Shown piece by piece: positions 13,457-20,295 of a stretch of DNA of 64,000 bases; the stretch's first letter is position 1; the number at the start of each line of letters is the position of its first letter. The translations under genes and the position numbers were made by a program. Source of the DNA: Spirosoma foliorum (lineage in GTDB: Bacteria; Bacteroidota; Bacteroidia; Cytophagales; Spirosomataceae). Location of the stretch: contig NZ_CP059732.1 in assembly GCF_014117325.1 (NCBI RefSeq), forward strand, positions 4,043,001-4,107,000, written 5' to 3'. A model generated the notes under the pieces. That model was given only the letters and a program-made list of their open reading frames with translations, searched no databases and was not told where the DNA came from.

Positions 13457-15097
13457 ATGCACACTACCATCAACTGGACTACACCTATTTCCTGGCTTAT
13501 TGCGGTAGCCTTGCTGGCCTTACTTGTTGTTCAGCTTTGGCTCATTATTCGCAATGATTCTCTTTCCAGTAATCGAAAGTGGATTCGGGCGGGGTTAAAT
13601 AGTTTGCTTTGGCTGGTTCTGGTTGCTTATTTTCTACAAATTCAATGGCCTATTTCCCGAGCAACAACGCACGCTTTGCTAGTTGGCGACGACGTTCCGG
13701 CTTCAGTTGCCCGACACCTGAAAGACAGCCTGCATATTGACGAGAGTTTTAACAGTCGGACCATAAAAGCGAACTATGATTCGATCACATTGATTGGTCA
13801 GCAATTTCCGACTGAAACCTTGACGCAACTGAGTAACGCACAAGTCCAGTGGATTCCTTATAATCAACCCGATCAGCTTGAGGCTCTTCATTGGAAAGGT
13901 ATCGTTCGGTTGGGCGAAATGCAGCAGGTGACGGGTCGGCTTCAATCCTCAAAAAAGCAATCGCTCCAGGTCCGGTTTGGTAACAAGACATTGGATAGTG
14001 TGGCGCTGCACGAAGGAGCAAACGCCTTTACATTTCAATTTCCAGCATTTACCAAAGGCCATAGTCAGGCAGAAATCGTACTCGGAACCACTACGCTCGA
14101 CACGCTTAATTTCTTTACTCGGCCAACCGATCCACTCACGGTTCAGATTTTGCTCAATAACCCCGATTTTGAGAGCAAGACTTTAGCCGATTGGCTGGGT
14201 AAGCAAGGATACACGGTAACGGTATCGGCCGCGCTGTCGAAAGCTATCAGTAGTCAGGTAAGCATTAACAAGGCGGGAAAATCAGGAGGTAAAACTACGC
14301 CCGATCTGATCATCACCGAACCCATCAACGCAGCCAGCACAGTAGTCAAAAAAGCCATTGCTGATGGGAAAGCGGTTCTTTTTATTAATCTGACAAATCC
14401 GGAAGTCGATTGTCGCACCATTAACCTGGCATTGGGAAGTCGTTGGCAGGTACGTAAAATCAACAACGAACCACTTATTCCACTGGGCAACGGTCTGAAC
14501 GCCCTCCCCTATCGATTTGCCGATAGCCCCAATCAGTTTTCAGTAGCAGGCTACCCAATTGCGGCTCAGCAAACAACCGGACGAGTGGGTGTTAGCCTGT
14601 TGAGCGAAACTTACCCCCTGTCGCTGAGCGGTGATAGTGTCACTTACAATCGGGTTTGGACAGCCGTACTGGCTCGCTTATCGGAATCGGACCAAAATAC
14701 AGTTCAGGTAGATGCGCCTGTATACAGCGGTATTCGGCACACGATTTCCGTCAATAACCCCACCAACCGGTTAACGAGCCTTCGTGTTGGGCAGGATACG
14801 CTTCGCCTACGTTACTCTCCAATGAATGACCGCTCGGCAACGGGAACCTCATCGTTCAGCAAATCGGGTTGGCAATCGGTGCAGGACTCATTAGCGTTGT
14901 ACGTCAATCGACTGACACCCAACGATCCAATTGCGAATCGGACACTTGTCGGTCAGTTTATGCTAGCCCATTCGTTGTCTTCATCCCTTGAAGGAACTAC
15001 TGCCCGAACAACCACCGCTCAACTCCCCAACTGGGTCTGGCTGGTGTTATTATTGGGTTGTTTTACGGCTCTTTGGGTAGAGCCGAAACTGGGTTAG
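13457..15097 (+). CDS. Membrane protein of the MoxR operon, BatA-like topology
   Basis: A 546-residue protein with two N-terminal helices (about 13-32 and 46-64), a large soluble middle, and a C-terminal helix (LPNWVWLVLLLGCFTALW at about 524-541). This topology mirrors the BatA-like gene upstream, and the gene ends the operon. Residues 420-470 look beta-rich. No catalytic motif was recognised. Its last 48 bases overlap the convergent small gene at 15050-15277. Its role is presumed to be an envelope component of the MoxR/Bat system, from context only. Confidence 0.75.
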   Translation: MHTTINWTTPISWLIAVALLALLVVQLWLIIRNDSLSSNRKWIRAGLNSLLWLVLVAYFLQIQWPISRATTHALLVGDDVPASVARHLKDSLHIDESFNSRTIKANYDSITLIGQQFPTETLTQLSNAQVQWIPYNQPDQLEALHWKGIVRLGEMQQVTGRLQSSKKQSLQVRFGNKTLDSVALHEGANAFTFQFPAFTKGHSQAEIVLGTTTLDTLNFFTRPTDPLTVQILLNNPDFESKTLADWLGKQGYTVTVSAALSKAISSQVSINKAGKSGGKTTPDLIITEPINAASTVVKKAIADGKAVLFINLTNPEVDCRTINLALGSRWQVRKINNEPLIPLGNGLNALPYRFADSPNQFSVAGYPIAAQQTTGRVGVSLLSETYPLSLSGDSVTYNRVWTAVLARLSESDQNTVQVDAPVYSGIRHTISVNNPTNRLTSLRVGQDTLRLRYSPMNDRSATGTSSFSKSGWQSVQDSLALYVNRLTPNDPIANRTLVGQFMLAHSLSSSLEGTTARTTTAQLPNWVWLVLLLGCFTALWVEPKLG

Positions 15098-15277
15098 TTG
15101 TTTATCGATATGATGTCCTTTGCAGCCACCATGATTGTGCCAATCGTGATGATTCTGATAACTATAACAGCCCCAACCTCGATGGCTATAGGCATGAGGA
15201 CCGATGAACGTCATCAGGCTCCCGAAGGTAAGCCCGGCCGTAATGATCACGGCCCAGGGGTTTAAGCGTTGTCTCAT
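15050..15277 (-). CDS. Small hydrophobic/His-rich protein, unknown
   Basis: A 75-residue reading frame with an N-terminal hydrophobic helix (NPWAVIITAGLTFGSLMTFI) and a His-rich stretch (HHDWHNHGGCKGHH). It starts 13 nt after the stop of 15291-15623 on the same strand, which favours a real two-gene unit. Its last 16 codons overlap the end of the convergent membrane-protein gene, so either the overlap is real or the C-terminus is spurious. No known family was recognised. Confidence 0.55.
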   Translation of the reverse strand: MRQRLNPWAVIITAGLTFGSLMTFIGPHAYSHRGWGCYSYQNHHDWHNHGGCKGHHIDKQLTQFRLYPKSRKTTQ

Positions 15278-15290
15278 TTGTTGCGATTAG

Positions 15291-15623
15291 TTATACGTTT
15301 GCTGAGGTGTCGTTCGTCGAATTTCCAGTGCCTTTCTGGTTGAAATAATCACCACAGCGACCACCCTGCTCGAAACGTTGTTTGAACTGATTGTATTCTT
15401 CGTCACTCATCTGGCGAATTCGGTCGGCAAAGGCGGGCATATAACCGTAGCCTCGACCTTGCCCCCATCCACCCCTCCTGAAACGCCTACCCCCAAAAAG
15501 GCGGAACAAAGCCCCGATAATCAGGAAGAAAACCACCAGCCGAATCAGGAAAAAAGGCATGATGAATAAAGCGGCTCCCAGTAGTACACCGGCAGCAATT
15601 GATTTTACAAGGTTATTGTTCAT
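15291..15623 (-). CDS. Small membrane protein with a QMSDEE motif
   Basis: A 110-residue protein. A hydrophobic N-terminal half (VLLGAALFIMPFFLIRLVVF) is followed by an Arg/Gly-rich linker (RRFRRGGWGQGRGYGY) and a charged helix RIRQMSDEEYNQFKQRF at about 69-85. The same membrane-helix, Gly-rich and QMSDE plan occurs in 17245-17574, next to the sigma factor. The two are therefore probably related and may be regulated together, although an IS110 element and a terminator separate them. Function unknown. Confidence 0.7.
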   Translation of the reverse strand: MNNNLVKSIAAGVLLGAALFIMPFFLIRLVVFFLIIGALFRLFGGRRFRRGGWGQGRGYGYMPAFADRIRQMSDEEYNQFKQRFEQGGRCGDYFNQKGTGNSTNDTSANV

Positions 15624-15829
15624 TGTCGTTATCTAGTTATTTGTTGTTGTATTAAGGATGACGGATCAGAGAAGAGATTACTTTACCAAGGCTAAAAAAA
15701 CTTGTAAAGTGTGTCCGTTTTGAGAAACCTCACCAAGTCGGGTTTTGGAACCTGACTTCACAATAAACCCTGTACACTAACGTAAATTATGGCCGATTTA
15801 CGAATAGAATTATACTAGTTTTTTGTCAT
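15624..15829. other. Intergenic region between the small membrane protein gene and IS110
   Basis: It contains a hairpin near 15735-15760 (AAGTCGGGTT/AACCTGACTT) and, at 15819-15829, TTTTTTGTCAT. That last piece is the severed outer end of the hairpin repeat into which IS110 inserted. No gene is supported. The promoter of 15291-15623 should be here. Confidence 0.6.
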
Positions 15830-15851
15830 GAACTGTGTCAAAAAACAAGTT

Positions 15852-16853
15852 TTAAGCCAAATTTTGTTTGGATAGGCTGAACCCATTGACGAATTCAATA
15901 TTCTTCTTCACCACCACAAACACCTGATGCAACAACTTATTCATCACCGCCACCATCGCCACTTTGTGGCATTTACCCTTGGCCCGTAGCCGATCATAAA
16001 GCGCTTTACAGCCCAAATTGTATTTACGGGCCGAACGAGCTGCCATGTATAAAAGGCCCCGTACATACCCTAAACCCGTGCGGGCCATCCGACCACGCCG
16101 ACGAACCGAACTGCCCGATTGAGTTTGACTGGGGGCAATGCCCACGAACTTAGCTACCGCTTTGGCTGACTCGAATCCAGCCAGCCCATTGGTGGCCGTG
16201 CACAAGGCTTGAGAGGAAGCCGGCCCAATCCCCTTGACCCGCTGCATCCGCTCCGAAATGGCCTGCAACTCCTGTTGACTCAGCTGATCCAGTTCCTCTT
16301 CAAAGAGCGCAATCTGAGTCAGGTAGCTCTGTTGGAGAACCAGCAGGCTAGCCTTGACTTTCTGACTGGCCCGGGGGTCGAACGACAGCGCATGAAGCTG
16401 ATTAGCCACCGCTTGCTGACTGATTCGCAGGTCGTTGAGGTGTTTGTGCTGTTGGCGAAGCTGATGTAGAGACTCATCGGCCAGTTGCGAAGGCTGGGGC
16501 TGAAAGACTTGTCCGTAGCGCGCCAATAGTGCCGCATCGCTCCGGTCGGTCTTGCTGATAGACTTCAGAGTGGCGGCAAAGCCTTTGCTTTGGTTGGGCG
16601 TAAGGAGGCTAAAGGGGCGATTTTGCAGGGCTAATACCCAAGCTAATCGAGCCGAATAGGTACCTGTATGCTCGAAAATGAGGTGGCTATTGGCGGGCAG
16701 TTCAGCAGCCCATTGCTCAATGGAGTCCGCTTGGTTGGGCAGGGTTTGATAGGCCCATTGGGGTTGCCCATTGGCATCGATTCCGATTTGGTAGCTGATG
16801 TGTAAGGTCTCTTTACTGACATCAACCCCGTAATAGATAGCTGGTTGGTTCAT
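15852..16853 (-). CDS. IS110-family transposase (bridge-RNA-guided recombinase)
   Basis: A 333-residue IS110 transposase. The N-terminal RuvC-like DEDD domain shows D11 (GVDVSK), E60 (FEHTGTY), and D102/D105 (KTDRSDA). The C-terminal Transposase_20 domain has the helix-hairpin-helix-like VKGIGPASSQAL near 205-216 and the serine motif GIAPSQTQSGSS, where S245 is the likely nucleophile. It starts at ATG 16853. Length and both domains are normal, so the enzyme looks intact. Enzymes of this family recombine donor and target DNA using an RNA from the element's non-coding end. Confidence 0.95.
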   Translation of the reverse strand: MNQPAIYYGVDVSKETLHISYQIGIDANGQPQWAYQTLPNQADSIEQWAAELPANSHLIFEHTGTYSARLAWVLALQNRPFSLLTPNQSKGFAATLKSISKTDRSDAALLARYGQVFQPQPSQLADESLHQLRQQHKHLNDLRISQQAVANQLHALSFDPRASQKVKASLLVLQQSYLTQIALFEEELDQLSQQELQAISERMQRVKGIGPASSQALCTATNGLAGFESAKAVAKFVGIAPSQTQSGSSVRRRGRMARTGLGYVRGLLYMAARSARKYNLGCKALYDRLRAKGKCHKVAMVAVMNKLLHQVFVVVKKNIEFVNGFSLSKQNLA

Positions 16854-16869
16854 GCTAAAAACGAAAAAA

Positions 16870-17040
16870 GCGGGATACTACTCATGCTCTCGACATCATT
16901 GTGAAACGGGCTATATGCCCACTGAACTGTCCGGGTTCCATGAGATTGGCTCTCCAGGCTACCGATCATGACAACCGGTCTTTTAGACCATCCCGACGTA
17001 GGTATGACCTGGAGAACCAAAGATTATTTGTTCAGAGCAA
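16870..17040 (-). ncRNA. Predicted IS110 bridge RNA (target- and donor-binding loops identified)
   Basis: Read on the minus strand. Loop 1: stem GGTTCTCCAGG (17018-17008) pairs with CCTGGAGAGCC (16958-16948). Its 5' side holds CGTCGGGAT (16998-16990), identical to the left target. A hairpin GGTCTAAAAGACC follows. Its 3' side holds TTGTCAT (16974-16968), complementary to the right target ATGACAA. Loop 2: stem CTCATG (16944-16939) pairs with CATGAG (16886-16881). It carries ACAGTTCA (16930-16923), matching the element's right end plus core, then hairpin GGGCATATAGCCC, then ACAAT (16902-16898), complementary to core plus left end (ATTGT). This is the known bridge RNA architecture. Exact RNA ends are estimated. 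Confidence 0.85.
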
Positions 17041-17047
17041 ACTTACA

Positions 17048-17118
17048 ATCCCGACGCCAGGAGGGATCTTCGGCAACTGGTTATTTACCGAAGATCCCTC
17101 CTGGCGTCGGGATGACAA
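17048..17118. repeat. Inverted repeat of the GTCATCCCGACG class, interrupted by IS110
   Basis: The left arm ATCCCGACGCCAGGAGGGAT then CTTCGG pairs with the right arm CCGAAG then ATCCCTCCTGGCGTCGGGAT, which runs on into GACAAAAAA. The left arm's outer part (TTTTTTGTC) is displaced to 15819-15827 by the insertion. Related repeats are at 52470-52555, 56898-56993 and 57121-57165. Confidence 0.85.
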
Positions 17119-17187
17119 AAAATGATATTATAAATAACTGACAATCAGTTGATAATTTCAGATTCTATCCATTAATCATGTTAAACT

Positions 17188-17220
17188 AAAAACCCTCACC
17201 AGATGCATCTGATGAGGGCT
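17188..17220 (-). terminator. Intrinsic terminator after the sigma factor unit
   Basis: The minus-strand transcript would form CCCTCATCAGATG/CATCTGGTGAGGG followed by TTTTT (complement of 17192-17188). It lies just downstream of the 17245-17574 stop, so the sigma unit ends here and the genes beyond IS110 need their own promoter. Confidence 0.82.
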
Positions 17221-17244
17221 TATCACTAGGTTTATGTACAACAG

Positions 17245-17574
17245 CTACGAGCGATCTTCGCTCCGTCGTCGCCATTCATTTTTGAATTTCGCTCGGTCTT
17301 CGTCGCTCATTTGGCGCCACTTCTCGCGCCAGGCAGGACCTCCGCCATCAAACGAGCGCCCACCCGATGGGCCCGCTTTAAATCCTCCCAGCAAGATTCG
17401 ACTCAAAACCAGTAAGCCCATTGCCTGCCAGTAGGTAACGGCTTTCACGGGAACAACCGCAACCAGTACTCTATTCCAGAGCCAATAGACCACAAACGAA
17501 AAAAAGAATAAGGCCATCAGGATGAACACCGGAAAGAAGAAACGAAATCGTCTTCGGCCAGGGTAATTTCTCAT
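17245..17574 (-). CDS. Small membrane protein in the ECF sigma unit
   Basis: A 109-residue protein with two hydrophobic segments (FFPVFILMALFFFSFVVYWL at about 13-32 and YWQAMGLLVLSRILLGGF at about 48-65). A Gly/Pro-rich linker and the charged segment WREKWRQMSDEDRAKFKNEW at about 82-101 follow. It begins 4 nt after the sigma factor stop, so the two are surely co-transcribed. Small membrane proteins next to ECF sigma factors often regulate them, but no anti-sigma fold was recognised. It resembles 15291-15623 in plan. Confidence 0.72.
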   Translation of the reverse strand: MRNYPGRRRFRFFFPVFILMALFFFSFVVYWLWNRVLVAVVPVKAVTYWQAMGLLVLSRILLGGFKAGPSGGRSFDGGGPAWREKWRQMSDEDRAKFKNEWRRRSEDRS

Positions 17575-17578
17575 TGTC

Positions 17579-18172
17579 TTACAGGTTATTGAGTTCGTTA
17601 TACAGGGATTGTAGCCGCTTCCGCAAGTGTTGCACAGCGTACCGTTTTCGCGAAATTATCGTTTTCAGGTTTTCGCCGGTTTCATCCGCAATTTCCTGCA
17701 AGGTGCGATCTTCCAGCTCATTTTGAACAAACACACTCCGCTGATTTTCGGGCAACTCATCCAGTGCCCGCATTAATTCGTCCCAGAAAATATCTTTAAA
17801 GAACTGGTCTTCGGGCGTTTGCGCATCAGCTAATAGAATCTCCCGAAAATTGATCTCCCCTTCGTCATCTTCAATCATTAACTCCGATAAGGGATCTTCT
17901 TTTTTCTTCCGATACGTGTCTGTTATTCGATTGCGAGCCACCTGAAACAACCAACCACTAATGCTTTCGATTCCATCGAGATCAACTACTTTGCTGAGTT
18001 GATACCAGACATCCTGCAAAATATCTTCCGCGTCCTCTTCGGATTTCACCTGTCCACGAATAAAGCGCGACAGCCGATTTCCGTACTGCTTCACGGTTTC
18101 GATAATATTTCGTTTAGGTGGGTCTGCCATCTTACTACTAAGCGCGGTATAGATTGATGAACGGGTTGTCAT
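17579..18172 (-). CDS. ECF-type RNA polymerase sigma factor
   Basis: A 197-residue sigma-70 family protein. Region 2 is at about 30-100 (EEDAEDILQDVWYQL and SGWLFQVARNRITDTYRKKK). Region 4 is at about 140-190 (ALDELPENQRSVFVQNELED then TLQEIADETGENLKTIISRK). The ATG at 18172 is used; M15 (MADPPKRN) is an alternative. It should redirect core RNA polymerase to a specific regulon. The downstream co-transcribed membrane protein is the only visible candidate for its control. Confidence 0.92.
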   Translation of the reverse strand: MTTRSSIYTALSSKMADPPKRNIIETVKQYGNRLSRFIRGQVKSEEDAEDILQDVWYQLSKVVDLDGIESISGWLFQVARNRITDTYRKKKEDPLSELMIEDDEGEINFREILLADAQTPEDQFFKDIFWDELMRALDELPENQRSVFVQNELEDRTLQEIADETGENLKTIISRKRYAVQHLRKRLQSLYNELNNL

Positions 18173-18562
18173 GTAGCGCTACTTGAAGTTTACAGGCTAT
18201 ATGTGCCGCGTTTTAGATCACGTATCCAGTCTTCGTGGTTAATACCTGTTGATTAATCGATTGACGTTGCAAGAGAAACCCAATGTCGATTTAATTAGTG
18301 CAAAAACCAGCGACCCCGATAACCACAAAATCAATGGAAGGTCGTAGATAAAGATGGTCGGTTGTAGAACAAGTTTATTATGCCTGAATTGTAACACAGG
18401 CTGTATCTCTTTTTTTCGACAGGACTACAGGAGTAGACAGGATTTTAGTCAACGATATCCTATCTACTCCTGTAGTCCTGTCGAAAATTAACCGTTTAAT
18501 TCCAGTAACAAAGCCGTACTTTACCTGACCTACGATTAGTTTCGCAGTCTAAAACAGCAACC
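18173..18562. other. 390-bp divergent intergenic region
   Basis: It lies between the minus-strand sigma factor and a plus-strand lipoprotein gene, so it should hold both promoters. Apart from the inverted repeat at 18416-18484, no gene or clear promoter was recognised. A weak TAGTTTCG close to the lipoprotein start resembles the -7 element. Confidence 0.5.
18416..18484. repeat. Intergenic inverted repeat, GACAGGACTACAGG class
   Basis: TCGACAGGACTACAGGAGTA then GACAGGAT pairs with ATCCTATC then TACTCCTGTAGTCCTGTCGA, 27 of 28 positions. It is flanked by T7 on the left and AAAATTAA on the right, so the T tract precedes rather than follows the stem. Confidence 0.85.
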
Positions 18563-19018
18563 ATGAGATATATTTCCCCTGTCTGTTTCCTCTTTTTATT
18601 AGCTGCCTGTGCGCCTAGCAAGGAGAAAATTTGCGGTAAAATGGACGACAGCATCCGCCGTTATCTTGAAAAATCAAACAAAGACCTAGCCATCCATGCA
18701 TTAAAAACCACTGACTTCGTTATGATTGGCGCGGGGCGTCTGGATACCCTTAGCAAGGAAAGCTATGGCAAGAAGATGGCCTATTTTTCAAAACGATACA
18801 CGGCCTCTGGTAATACCGCCAAAGCGGATCTGGACTCGATCAATTACTATTCGAAACTAGATTCGCTAACAACCCTACAAATTGCGAACAGATGGCAGGA
18901 CCCCAAGATCTATTATTATTCAAAAACCTATCTGAGTGCTACAATGGGTACAAAAAAAACAGCCGATACAGTGCATTATGCGCTTGATCGAACCTTTAAG
19001 CTGATTCCAATTCAATGA
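18563..19018 (+). CDS. Small lipoprotein, unknown
   Basis: A 151-residue protein with a lipoprotein signal (MRYISPVCFLFLLAACAPSK), where LAAC is the lipobox and C16 the lipidated residue. The mature part is charged and predicted mostly helical at first (DDSIRRYLEKSNKDLAIHAL), then contains Tyr-rich YYSK repeats. No family was recognised. It is monocistronic by position, with convergent or distant neighbours. Confidence 0.7.
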   Translation: MRYISPVCFLFLLAACAPSKEKICGKMDDSIRRYLEKSNKDLAIHALKTTDFVMIGAGRLDTLSKESYGKKMAYFSKRYTASGNTAKADLDSINYYSKLDSLTTLQIANRWQDPKIYYYSKTYLSATMGTKKTADTVHYALDRTFKLIPIQ

Positions 19019-19197
19019 TATTGGGGCTATCGATAATATGTTGCGCAAATTATCTGCTGGCCGCCAGCGTTTATAATTGGTTAATAAAAAAAATTGAATT
19101 GTCGTTGCAGGCCATAGCGCACCAATCGAAAAACTATTATCTTACCTCTTCGTTTCTCAACTAATACGAAACTGCATTTTTCTAACCCACGACACTA

Positions 19198-20295
19198 ATG
19201 CCCGTATTCACCCTTGGTATTGAAGAAGAGTTTCAGACAATTGACCCCAACACGGGCGAGCTTCGTTCGCACATGTCGAAGATCGTTGACGGTGGTCAAA
19301 TAGTTCTCCAGGAGCGCGTAAAGGCCGAAATGCACCAGGCGGTGGTTGAAGTAGGCACTAATATCTGCACCAATATTCAGGAAGCACGCCAGGAAGTTAC
19401 GTATCTCCGCAAGATGATTATCGAGCTGGCCGAAAAGCAGGGGTTAAAGATTGCGGCTGCCGGAACACACCCATTTTCAGACTGGCAGGAGCAGCTTATT
19501 ACGCCGAACGAACGCTACGATCGACTGATTGAAGAAATGCGTGACGTGGCCCGCTCAAACCTCATTTTTGGTTTACACGTCCACGTTGGCATTGAAAGTC
19601 GGAATGAGGGTATTCAGATCATGAATGCTGTGCGGTATTTTCTACCCCACATTTACGCGCTCTCCACCAATTCGCCATTCTGGAGAGGTCGGAATACGGG
19701 GTTCAAGTCATATCGTTCCAAAGTATTCGACAAGTTTCCACGTACGGGTATTCCTGACTTTTTCTCGTCAGCGGCTGAGTATGACGAATACATCAACCTG
19801 CTGATAAAAACGGGCTGTATCGACAACGGGAAGAAAATCTGGTGGGATATTCGCTTACATCCCTTCTTCGATACCATTGAGTTCCGCATTTGTGACGTAC
19901 CAATGCGTATCGACGAAACCATTTGTTTGGCGGCTATTATGCAGGCACTGGTGGCCAAAATTTATAAGCTTCACAAGCAAAATCTGAACTTCCGCCCCTA
20001 CCGACGCATCCTGATCAATGAAAACAAATGGCGGGCTGCCCGCTATGGTATCGAAGGAAAACTGATTGATTTTGGGAAGCAGGAAGAGGTTCCTACCCAC
20101 CAGCTGATTCACGAATTACTAAGTTTTATCGACGACGTTGTAGACGAGCTTGGCAGCCGCGAAGAATGCGAATACGTGCTCAAAATCCTCGAAATGGGTA
20201 CTGGTGCCGACCGTCAACTGGCTGTTTTTCAAGAGACAAATAGCTTTAAGAGTGTTATGGATTATATTATCGAAGAAACTTCTTTGGGTATCTGA
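19198..20295 (+). CDS. Carboxylate-amine ligase, GCS2/YbdK family
   Basis: A 365-residue member of the GCS2 (YbdK) family, ATP-dependent ligases related to glutamate-cysteine ligase. The signature GIEEEF is at residues 7-12. VVEVGTNICTN and the later IFGLHVHVGI segment carry metal and substrate residues typical of the fold. YbdK itself has only weak glutamate-cysteine ligase activity, so the natural product is unclear. It is followed at 51 and 19 nt by a glutamine amidotransferase and an ATP-grasp-like protein, which suggests a small biosynthetic cassette that makes or trims an amide-linked small molecule. Confidence 0.88.
   Translation: MPVFTLGIEEEFQTIDPNTGELRSHMSKIVDGGQIVLQERVKAEMHQAVVEVGTNICTNIQEARQEVTYLRKMIIELAEKQGLKIAAAGTHPFSDWQEQLITPNERYDRLIEEMRDVARSNLIFGLHVHVGIESRNEGIQIMNAVRYFLPHIYALSTNSPFWRGRNTGFKSYRSKVFDKFPRTGIPDFFSSAAEYDEYINLLIKTGCIDNGKKIWWDIRLHPFFDTIEFRICDVPMRIDETICLAAIMQALVAKIYKLHKQNLNFRPYRRILINENKWRAARYGIEGKLIDFGKQEEVPTHQLIHELLSFIDDVVDELGSREECEYVLKILEMGTGADRQLAVFQETNSFKSVMDYIIEETSLGI

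Follow-up and report, generated by a model that had tools for sequence, protein, structure and literature searches.

The window, the whole 64,000-nucleotide stretch of Spirosoma foliorum DNA that was analysed, carries an IS110-group insertion sequence on its minus strand at 15830-17047, with 1218 bases between two AT cores. Its non-coding ends are unequal, with 194 bases on the left, where the predicted RNA lies upstream of the gene, against 22 bases after the stop codon on the right (15830-15851). The initial annotation had described a 194-base left end (16854-17047), and this is correct. As judged from sequence comparison, the interpretation of this feature as the bridge RNA of the element is well supported. 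The locus is made up as follows.

15830..17047, minus strand: IS110-group insertion sequence (shared ends in ten copies; joined flanks aligned gaplessly to the uninterrupted G001 site)
15852..16853, minus strand: recombinase gene, 333 residues, with DEDD and Transposase_20 domains (PF01548, PF02371; NF033542; IS621 and ISCro4 structures as relatives)
16854..17047, minus strand: left end, predicted to encode the bridge RNA (covariance model match at 16875-17030, by construction; independent left-end matches in relatives; pair counts)
17048..17049, no strand: AT core at the left junction (flanks of the ten copies; uninterrupted site)
15828..15829, no strand: AT core at the right junction (flanks of the ten copies; uninterrupted site)
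17048..17113, no strand: palindromic repeat (arms of 29 bases) that provides the target at its edge; in window coordinates the element sits at the left edge (genome repeat searches)

The recombinase matches the profiles PF01548 (DEDD, RuvC-like domain) and PF02371 (Transposase_20 domain), and it reaches 173.1 bits with NF033542, "IS110 family RNA-guided transposase", for which the cut-off is 140. Two sequences with solved structures match it, ISCro4 (9t56) and IS621 (8wt6), and its similarity to the IS621 recombinase is only distant (phmmer, 82.9 bits). In the alignment, D11, E61, D103, D106 and S246 fall opposite acidic residues and a serine of IS621. These are catalytic residues of that recombinase. 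Its S241 is named in PMC11208158. A scan of genome contigs for relatives of the element found one, in Spirosoma sp. 48-14 (L077/L078), and a scan of viral contigs found none.

The host genome (8.85 Mb, one contig) holds ten full copies of the element. Every copy measures 1218 bases from core to core with the same ends, all ten are 100% identical in the search, and the recombinase frame is open and free of stops in 10/10. An uninterrupted site carries a single AT and an occupied site carries AT on both sides, which is insertion at a short core without further duplication. The element ends are fixed precisely because the uninterrupted unit in G001, another genome of the same genus, aligns with the joined flanks gaplessly over 186 bases, with a single AT. 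By analogy with its group, the element would pass through a circular intermediate.

Guides, insertion sites and covariation

Four short guides lie in the left end.

16990..16998, minus strand: left target guide CGTCGGGAT, seven bases plus the core (position check; covariation)
16968..16974, minus strand: right target guide TTGTCAT, the complement of the core plus GACAA (position check; covariation)
16923..16930, minus strand: left donor guide ACAGTTCA, the right end plus the first core base (position check; covariation)
16898..16902, minus strand: right donor guide ACAAT, the complement of the core plus TGT of the left end (position check; covariation; 18-row donor-loop table)

All four motifs had been proposed in the initial annotation, and a check to the base finds each at its minus-strand place. 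The matching DNA lies at 17048-17056 (left target plus core), 15823-15829 (core plus right target) and 15829-15836 (right end plus first core base). The fit is complete, at 9/9 and 7/7 bases for the target and 8/8 and 5/5 for the donor, and the core AT falls within all four guides, except that the left donor guide takes in only the first base. In both the target and the donor loop, the 5' side would pair with the bottom strand and the 3' side with the top strand, core included, as the two-loop rule has it. Possible handshake guides of the kind described for IS621 were sought by eye: the next two bases beyond the right target guide would match the donor, the bases following the right donor guide would mismatch the target, and relatives differ, so we make no claim for them. 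We compared the guides with 20000 dinucleotide-preserving shuffles of the left end. The target pair scores 16/16, and the best shuffle reached 15, three times; the donor pair scores 13/13, and the best shuffle reached 12, 23 times. No shuffle attained either full score.

The insertion sites in the host follow the guides. All ten copies lie between CGTCGG(G/A)AT and GACAA, as the target guides predict, and the initial annotation's concern that the same element might occur at sites that do not match found no case among them. The left site is CGTCGGGAT in eight copies and CGTCGGAAT in two (L006, L010), and the right site matches at 7/7 bases in all ten. The single G-to-A change in the two left sites would be tolerated by G-T wobble. 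The genome also holds 63 uninterrupted CGTCGGGATGACAA sites (zero-mismatch rows, counted by hand) and 116 CGTCGGAATGACAA sites. The exact site is used more often than the one-base variant (8/71 vs 2/118, one-sided Fisher p 0.0066), which is modest evidence from a test that takes sites as independent.

The target is one edge of a dispersed palindrome. This palindrome sits inside a larger unit of ~186 bases with inverted ends TAACGT...ACGTTA (window 15778-15829 plus 17048-17183). The unit is uninterrupted in G001 (L142) and is common to the flanks of host copies L002 and L003. It looks like a small non-autonomous mobile element that the IS110 element entered. In another genome (G003:C77:202111-202185, compared with window 15686-17188), ~73 bases lie between the same two flanking genes, so neither the repeat unit nor the IS110 element is present there. 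Among the matches listed, the palindrome recurs in many genomes of the genus at ~72-87% identity (G012, G013, G015, G018, G033, G034 and others). An intergenic, near-perfect long inverted repeat at 18411-18489 is distinct from the target palindrome, and two weak Rfam plant microRNA matches fall on it.

Relatives of the element from the genus, family and order (34-48% identity) share the right end A(C/T)AGT(T/C)C and carry other target guides. Element boundaries were set by a conserved left-end start and the right-end motif, with boundaries and left anchors picked by hand from candidate lists. For each target we scored a 9-base left and a 7-base right guide, in order and 8-17 bases apart, by their best joint fit of 16. 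The tests covered 17 distinct elements, the window's and 16 relatives. Dropped from them were L078 (the window's guides and target), L081 (near L080, same left target), three of the four copies in G335, and L083, L111 and L126 (left boundary unclear or left end missing). The contigs of G134 end inside the element, so its left flank was taken from L119 and its right flank from the copy L109.

Guides fit their own targets with a mean of 14.06/16, compared with 10.20 when scored on the other elements' targets. The highest mean in 20000 permutations was 12.06, and 14.06 was never reached. An element's own target is strictly best in 12/17 and tied in 2/17 (L082 and L117, which have identical targets within the scored bases); the exceptions, L108, L112 and L124, show no preference for their own. 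The recombinases of L108 and L078 each contain a stop by the tool's count, and the L078 guides nonetheless fit. The four G335 insertions score 11 (L128), 14 (L129), 15 (L130) and 13 (L131) of 16, and repeating the test with each in turn gave means from 13.82 to 14.06, with 0/20000 permutations each time. Exact left guides are found in L107 (TTTTGTCAT), L079 (GATTTCTAT), L116 (TCTTAACAT) and L127 (CTATCATGT). The left guides of L124 and L125 differ at one base, and their targets differ likewise there. Four plasmid relatives were added later: L144, L145 and L146 fit their own target best, with right guides at 7/7, and L147 does not.

The donor side varies in step as well. The right donor guide tracks the first bases of the left end through AT-TGT, AT-CGT, AT-TCT, AT-AGT, AT-ACT, AT-CTT and GT-CGT. 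It is a full five-base complement in 13/18 rows and matches 4/5 bases in the other five. Its fit to its own end averages 5.18/6 vs 4.23 for others (0/20000 permutations). We consider covariation, above all that of the target guides with their insertion sites, to be the decisive evidence for the bridge RNA reading. Close relatives show natural re-targeting.

Two further observations concern cores and targets. In L108, L110 and L147 the two cores of a single element differ, one being GT and the other AT. Such pairs could have arisen when a target and a donor with unlike cores recombined. L107, L082 and L117 carry the guides TTTTGTCAT or TT(C/T)TGTCAA with CGGCAT/CGGAAT, and they occupy repeat edges of this kind but face the other way: distinct IS110 elements aim at one palindrome family from either side.

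Structure of the predicted RNA

The guides are framed by two loops with the following parts.

17008..17020, minus strand: 5' arm of the target-loop stem, pairing with 16946-16958 (folding; paired C-G to G-C change in L078)
16946..16958, minus strand: 3' arm of the target-loop stem (folding)
16977..16989, minus strand: hairpin GGTCTAAAAGACC between the target guides (pair counts)
16908..16920, minus strand: hairpin GGGCATATAGCCC inside the donor loop (pair counts)
16939..16944, minus strand: CTCATG, proposed 5' arm of the donor-loop stem, pairing with CATGAG at 16881-16886 (by eye, at the script's place for L078)
16881..16886, minus strand: CATGAG, proposed 3' arm of the donor-loop stem (by eye, at the script's place for L078)

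An 11-bp target-loop stem had been described earlier. The stem is present, but it is longer, with 13 pairs (17008-17020 with 16946-16958), one of them G-U. In the minimum-energy fold the guides are enclosed in 18 pairs, and some guide bases are paired together. For the donor loop, the script chose another stem in the window's element than CTCATG/CATGAG. When the whole left end is folded, the minimum-energy structure has the 5' leader paired to the left donor guide, and we did not build on it. Fold energy is only moderately better than in shuffles (z -2.27; 4/200 shuffles fold at least as well), and the structure therefore rests mainly on covariation among relatives. Such support, on which the initial annotation had staked its reading, was found both between guides and targets and within the stems.

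A covariance model built from six sequences was searched against 50 sources (240908 bases). All of its 17 matches fall in left ends. Six come from its building set, and for six (L083, L082 and the four G335 copies) E exceeds 0.001. A more distant group, L079-L081, L112, L113, L116, L124 and L125, was also searched, and there the model finds no RNA. An Rfam search of window 14000-19500, with E up to 1, yielded no match within 16854-17047. In 14 distinct sequences, 90.0% of cells are paired, vs 69.4% when shuffled and 32-45% when slid by one to three columns; two-sided changes occur in 18/22 pairs and in 62 cells vs 21.8 in shuffles, all from an alignment fitted to the model, which favours the model. 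An unfitted MAFFT alignment of 11 sequences has 13 pairs, nine with two-sided changes.

Target-loop segments were also folded singly, in a set without L108 and L112. The guide region is enclosed by 10-23 pairs in 16/16 elements shown, and a small hairpin of 2-5 pairs lies between the guides in all 16. Across 18 rows, an outer stem of at least 5 pairs around the donor loop averages 7.9 pairs, compared with 6.1 when shuffled and 6.9 in the largest of 500 shuffle sets. Compared with the window's RNA, the left end of L119 (G134; 1010-1246) carries an insertion of ~35 bases in its target loop, located on the 5' side of the outer stem region.

A probable promoter divided between the element ends

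The left end starts with TGTAAGTTTG, and each end holds one putative promoter box.

17038..17045, minus strand: TAAGTTTG at the beginning of the left end, the predicted -7 box of a promoter of Bacteroidota type, with the RNA start predicted near 17033 (box consensus in PMC9723704)
15846..15848, minus strand: right-end TTG, which the joined ends place 20 bases ahead of TAAGTTTG (15/17 elements at exactly 20 bases)

Bacteroidota promoters carry a TTG near -33. When the right end, core and left end are joined as a circle, the sequence reads TTG-N20-TAnnTTTG, and in the integrated copy the two boxes are split. Joined ends have the TTG at exactly 20 bases in 15/17 elements; it lies at 21 in L113 and is absent in L110. 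In the integrated state, only 1/17 left flanks offer a TTG at 20 bases. TAnnTTTG is found in 16/17 elements, the remaining one having TAGTATTG; TTTG-like letters helped to set the left boundary, so this half of the signal is partly by construction, which the TTG and its distance are not. Four plasmid-borne Bacteroidota relatives have the TTG at 20 bases in 3/4, and their boxes read TACATTTG in the Phocaeicola element and TATGTTC(A/G) in three Hymenobacter ones. These counts are for Bacteroidota elements; the Pseudomonadota elements L148 and L149, whose ends are not resolved, were left out.

Joining the ends therefore seems, by its letters and spacing, to rebuild a Bacteroidota-type promoter that would turn the bridge RNA on. 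In Flavobacterium the main sigma factor uses TAnnTTTG as its -7 box, which spans -12 to -5 (PMC9723704). In IS621 a sigma-70-like promoter rebuilt at the circle junction yields the RNA (PMC11208160), and circles of ISEc11 and ISEc21 are also reported to have a promoter at the junction (PMC11187229). We think it likely that the ends of Bacteroidota IS110 elements are halves of a phylum-specific promoter and that circle formation alone brings them to the proper spacing. Strong production of bridge RNA and recombinase would then be restricted to the free element, with insertion itself turning both down. The ends would be doubly constrained, by donor-guide pairing and by the host sigma factor, and this may confine the elements to the phylum.

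An unlikely alternative accepts the bridge RNA and has the TTG and TAnnTTTG kept for recombinase binding or RNA pairing. The first bases of the left box adjoin or overlap the donor bases paired by the right donor guide, and the boundary effect on the TTTG-like letters works in the same direction. The TTG, however, is 16-18 bases away from the core, beyond the 7 or 8 donor bases that the guides pair with, and it played no part in setting boundaries. Its distance to the box is exactly 20 in most elements, the box is that of the phylum's main sigma factor (PMC9723704), and the same junction makes the RNA in IS621 (PMC11208160). A promoter divided between the ends is the reading we prefer.

Proposed mechanism and comparison with known systems

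Taken as a whole, the locus is almost certainly best explained by a left end that encodes a bridge RNA, with a circle-completed promoter and RNA-guided insertion. The sequences themselves show the guide matches, the covariation of guides with targets and element ends, the precise ends, the stem covariation and the split promoter boxes; circle formation, transcription, protein binding, catalysis and the off-switch on insertion are modelled on IS621. The element would be excised as a circle in which the right end meets the left end and completes the Bacteroidota-type promoter. From the circle, RNA would be transcribed from near 17033 downward and would bind the recombinase. The first loop would then pair with both strands of the target CGTCGGG-AT-GACAA at the edge of the dispersed palindromic repeat, and the second with both strands of the joined ends ACAGTTC-AT-TGT. 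Strand exchange by the recombinase at the AT core would insert the circle, leaving AT on both sides, and insertion would part the promoter boxes again.

It is very unlikely that the RNA was a working bridge RNA whose host-genome copies are no longer mobile: the ten copies are 100% identical, the recombinase frames are open, and the acidic residues and serine are aligned. Least probable is that the left end is a structured leader of the recombinase message, its guide matches stemming from chance or a captured piece of the target repeat; although CGTCGGGAT and TTGTCAT also occur in the repeat adjoining the element, which makes capture conceivable from the window alone, and the fold energy is only moderately unusual, shuffles fall short of the window's guide score, the right donor guide, unrelated to the repeat, covaries too, and capture is rejected because guides covary with targets in 17 elements, relatives at other targets having other, fitting guides at the same places in the RNA. 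The bridge RNA reading is retained.

The element shares several features with IS621. The recombinases are homologous, and the bridge RNA lies in the left end upstream of the gene (PMC11208160, PMC11208158). The target loop comes first and the donor loop second, the left target guide has 9 bases, the core falls within the guides, and the left donor guide stops at the first core base (PMC11208158). The second core base is T, a promoter would likewise be rebuilt across the circle junction, and targets lie in dispersed palindromic (REP) sequences. The Spirosoma element differs in its AT core, where IS621 has CT, in a right target guide of 7 bases instead of 4, and in a predicted junction promoter of Bacteroidota instead of sigma-70 type. 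IS621-type bridge RNAs also have a 5' stem-loop; no hairpin is found in the ~13 bases between the predicted start at 17033 and the stem at 17020, which leave no room for one if the RNA starts there.

Spirosoma sp. 48-14 (L077/L078) offers a close parallel, with an 85% identical recombinase, the same four guides and the target letters CGTCGGGAT plus ATGACAA. L078 differs by a paired change from C-G to G-C in the target-loop stem, another inner loop and one stop counted in the recombinase frame.

In ISEc21, an element of the IS110 type, the seekRNA is likewise a guide RNA and comes from non-coding DNA that precedes the gene. A promoter created at the circle junction, natural re-targeting between related elements and a REP target, in ISPa11, are further likenesses (PMC11187229). 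Unlike the Spirosoma element, ISEc11, ISKpn4 and ISPa11 belong to the IS1111 type and have their RNA on the downstream side of the gene. The short seekRNAs were mapped by sequencing (PMC11187229), whereas the Spirosoma RNA is predicted from the DNA.

"Bacteroid" is absent from the main text of the founding papers PMC11208160 and PMC11187229, and a literature search, supplements outside it, found nothing on IS110 insertion sequences in Spirosoma; we do not claim the Bacteroidota junction promoter as unreported. The locus provides a clear bridge-RNA element, in ten identical copies, in a phylum those main texts do not name. The proposed split of its promoter offers a testable explanation for RNA production chiefly from the circle and for a possible difficulty of such elements in crossing phyla. 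IS621 is less efficient with non-CT cores, and a longer right guide helped (PMC11208160). The Spirosoma element has AT matched in both target guides and a 7-base right guide, and against that weakness of IS621 its group may therefore be a source of naturally AT/GT-core enzymes.
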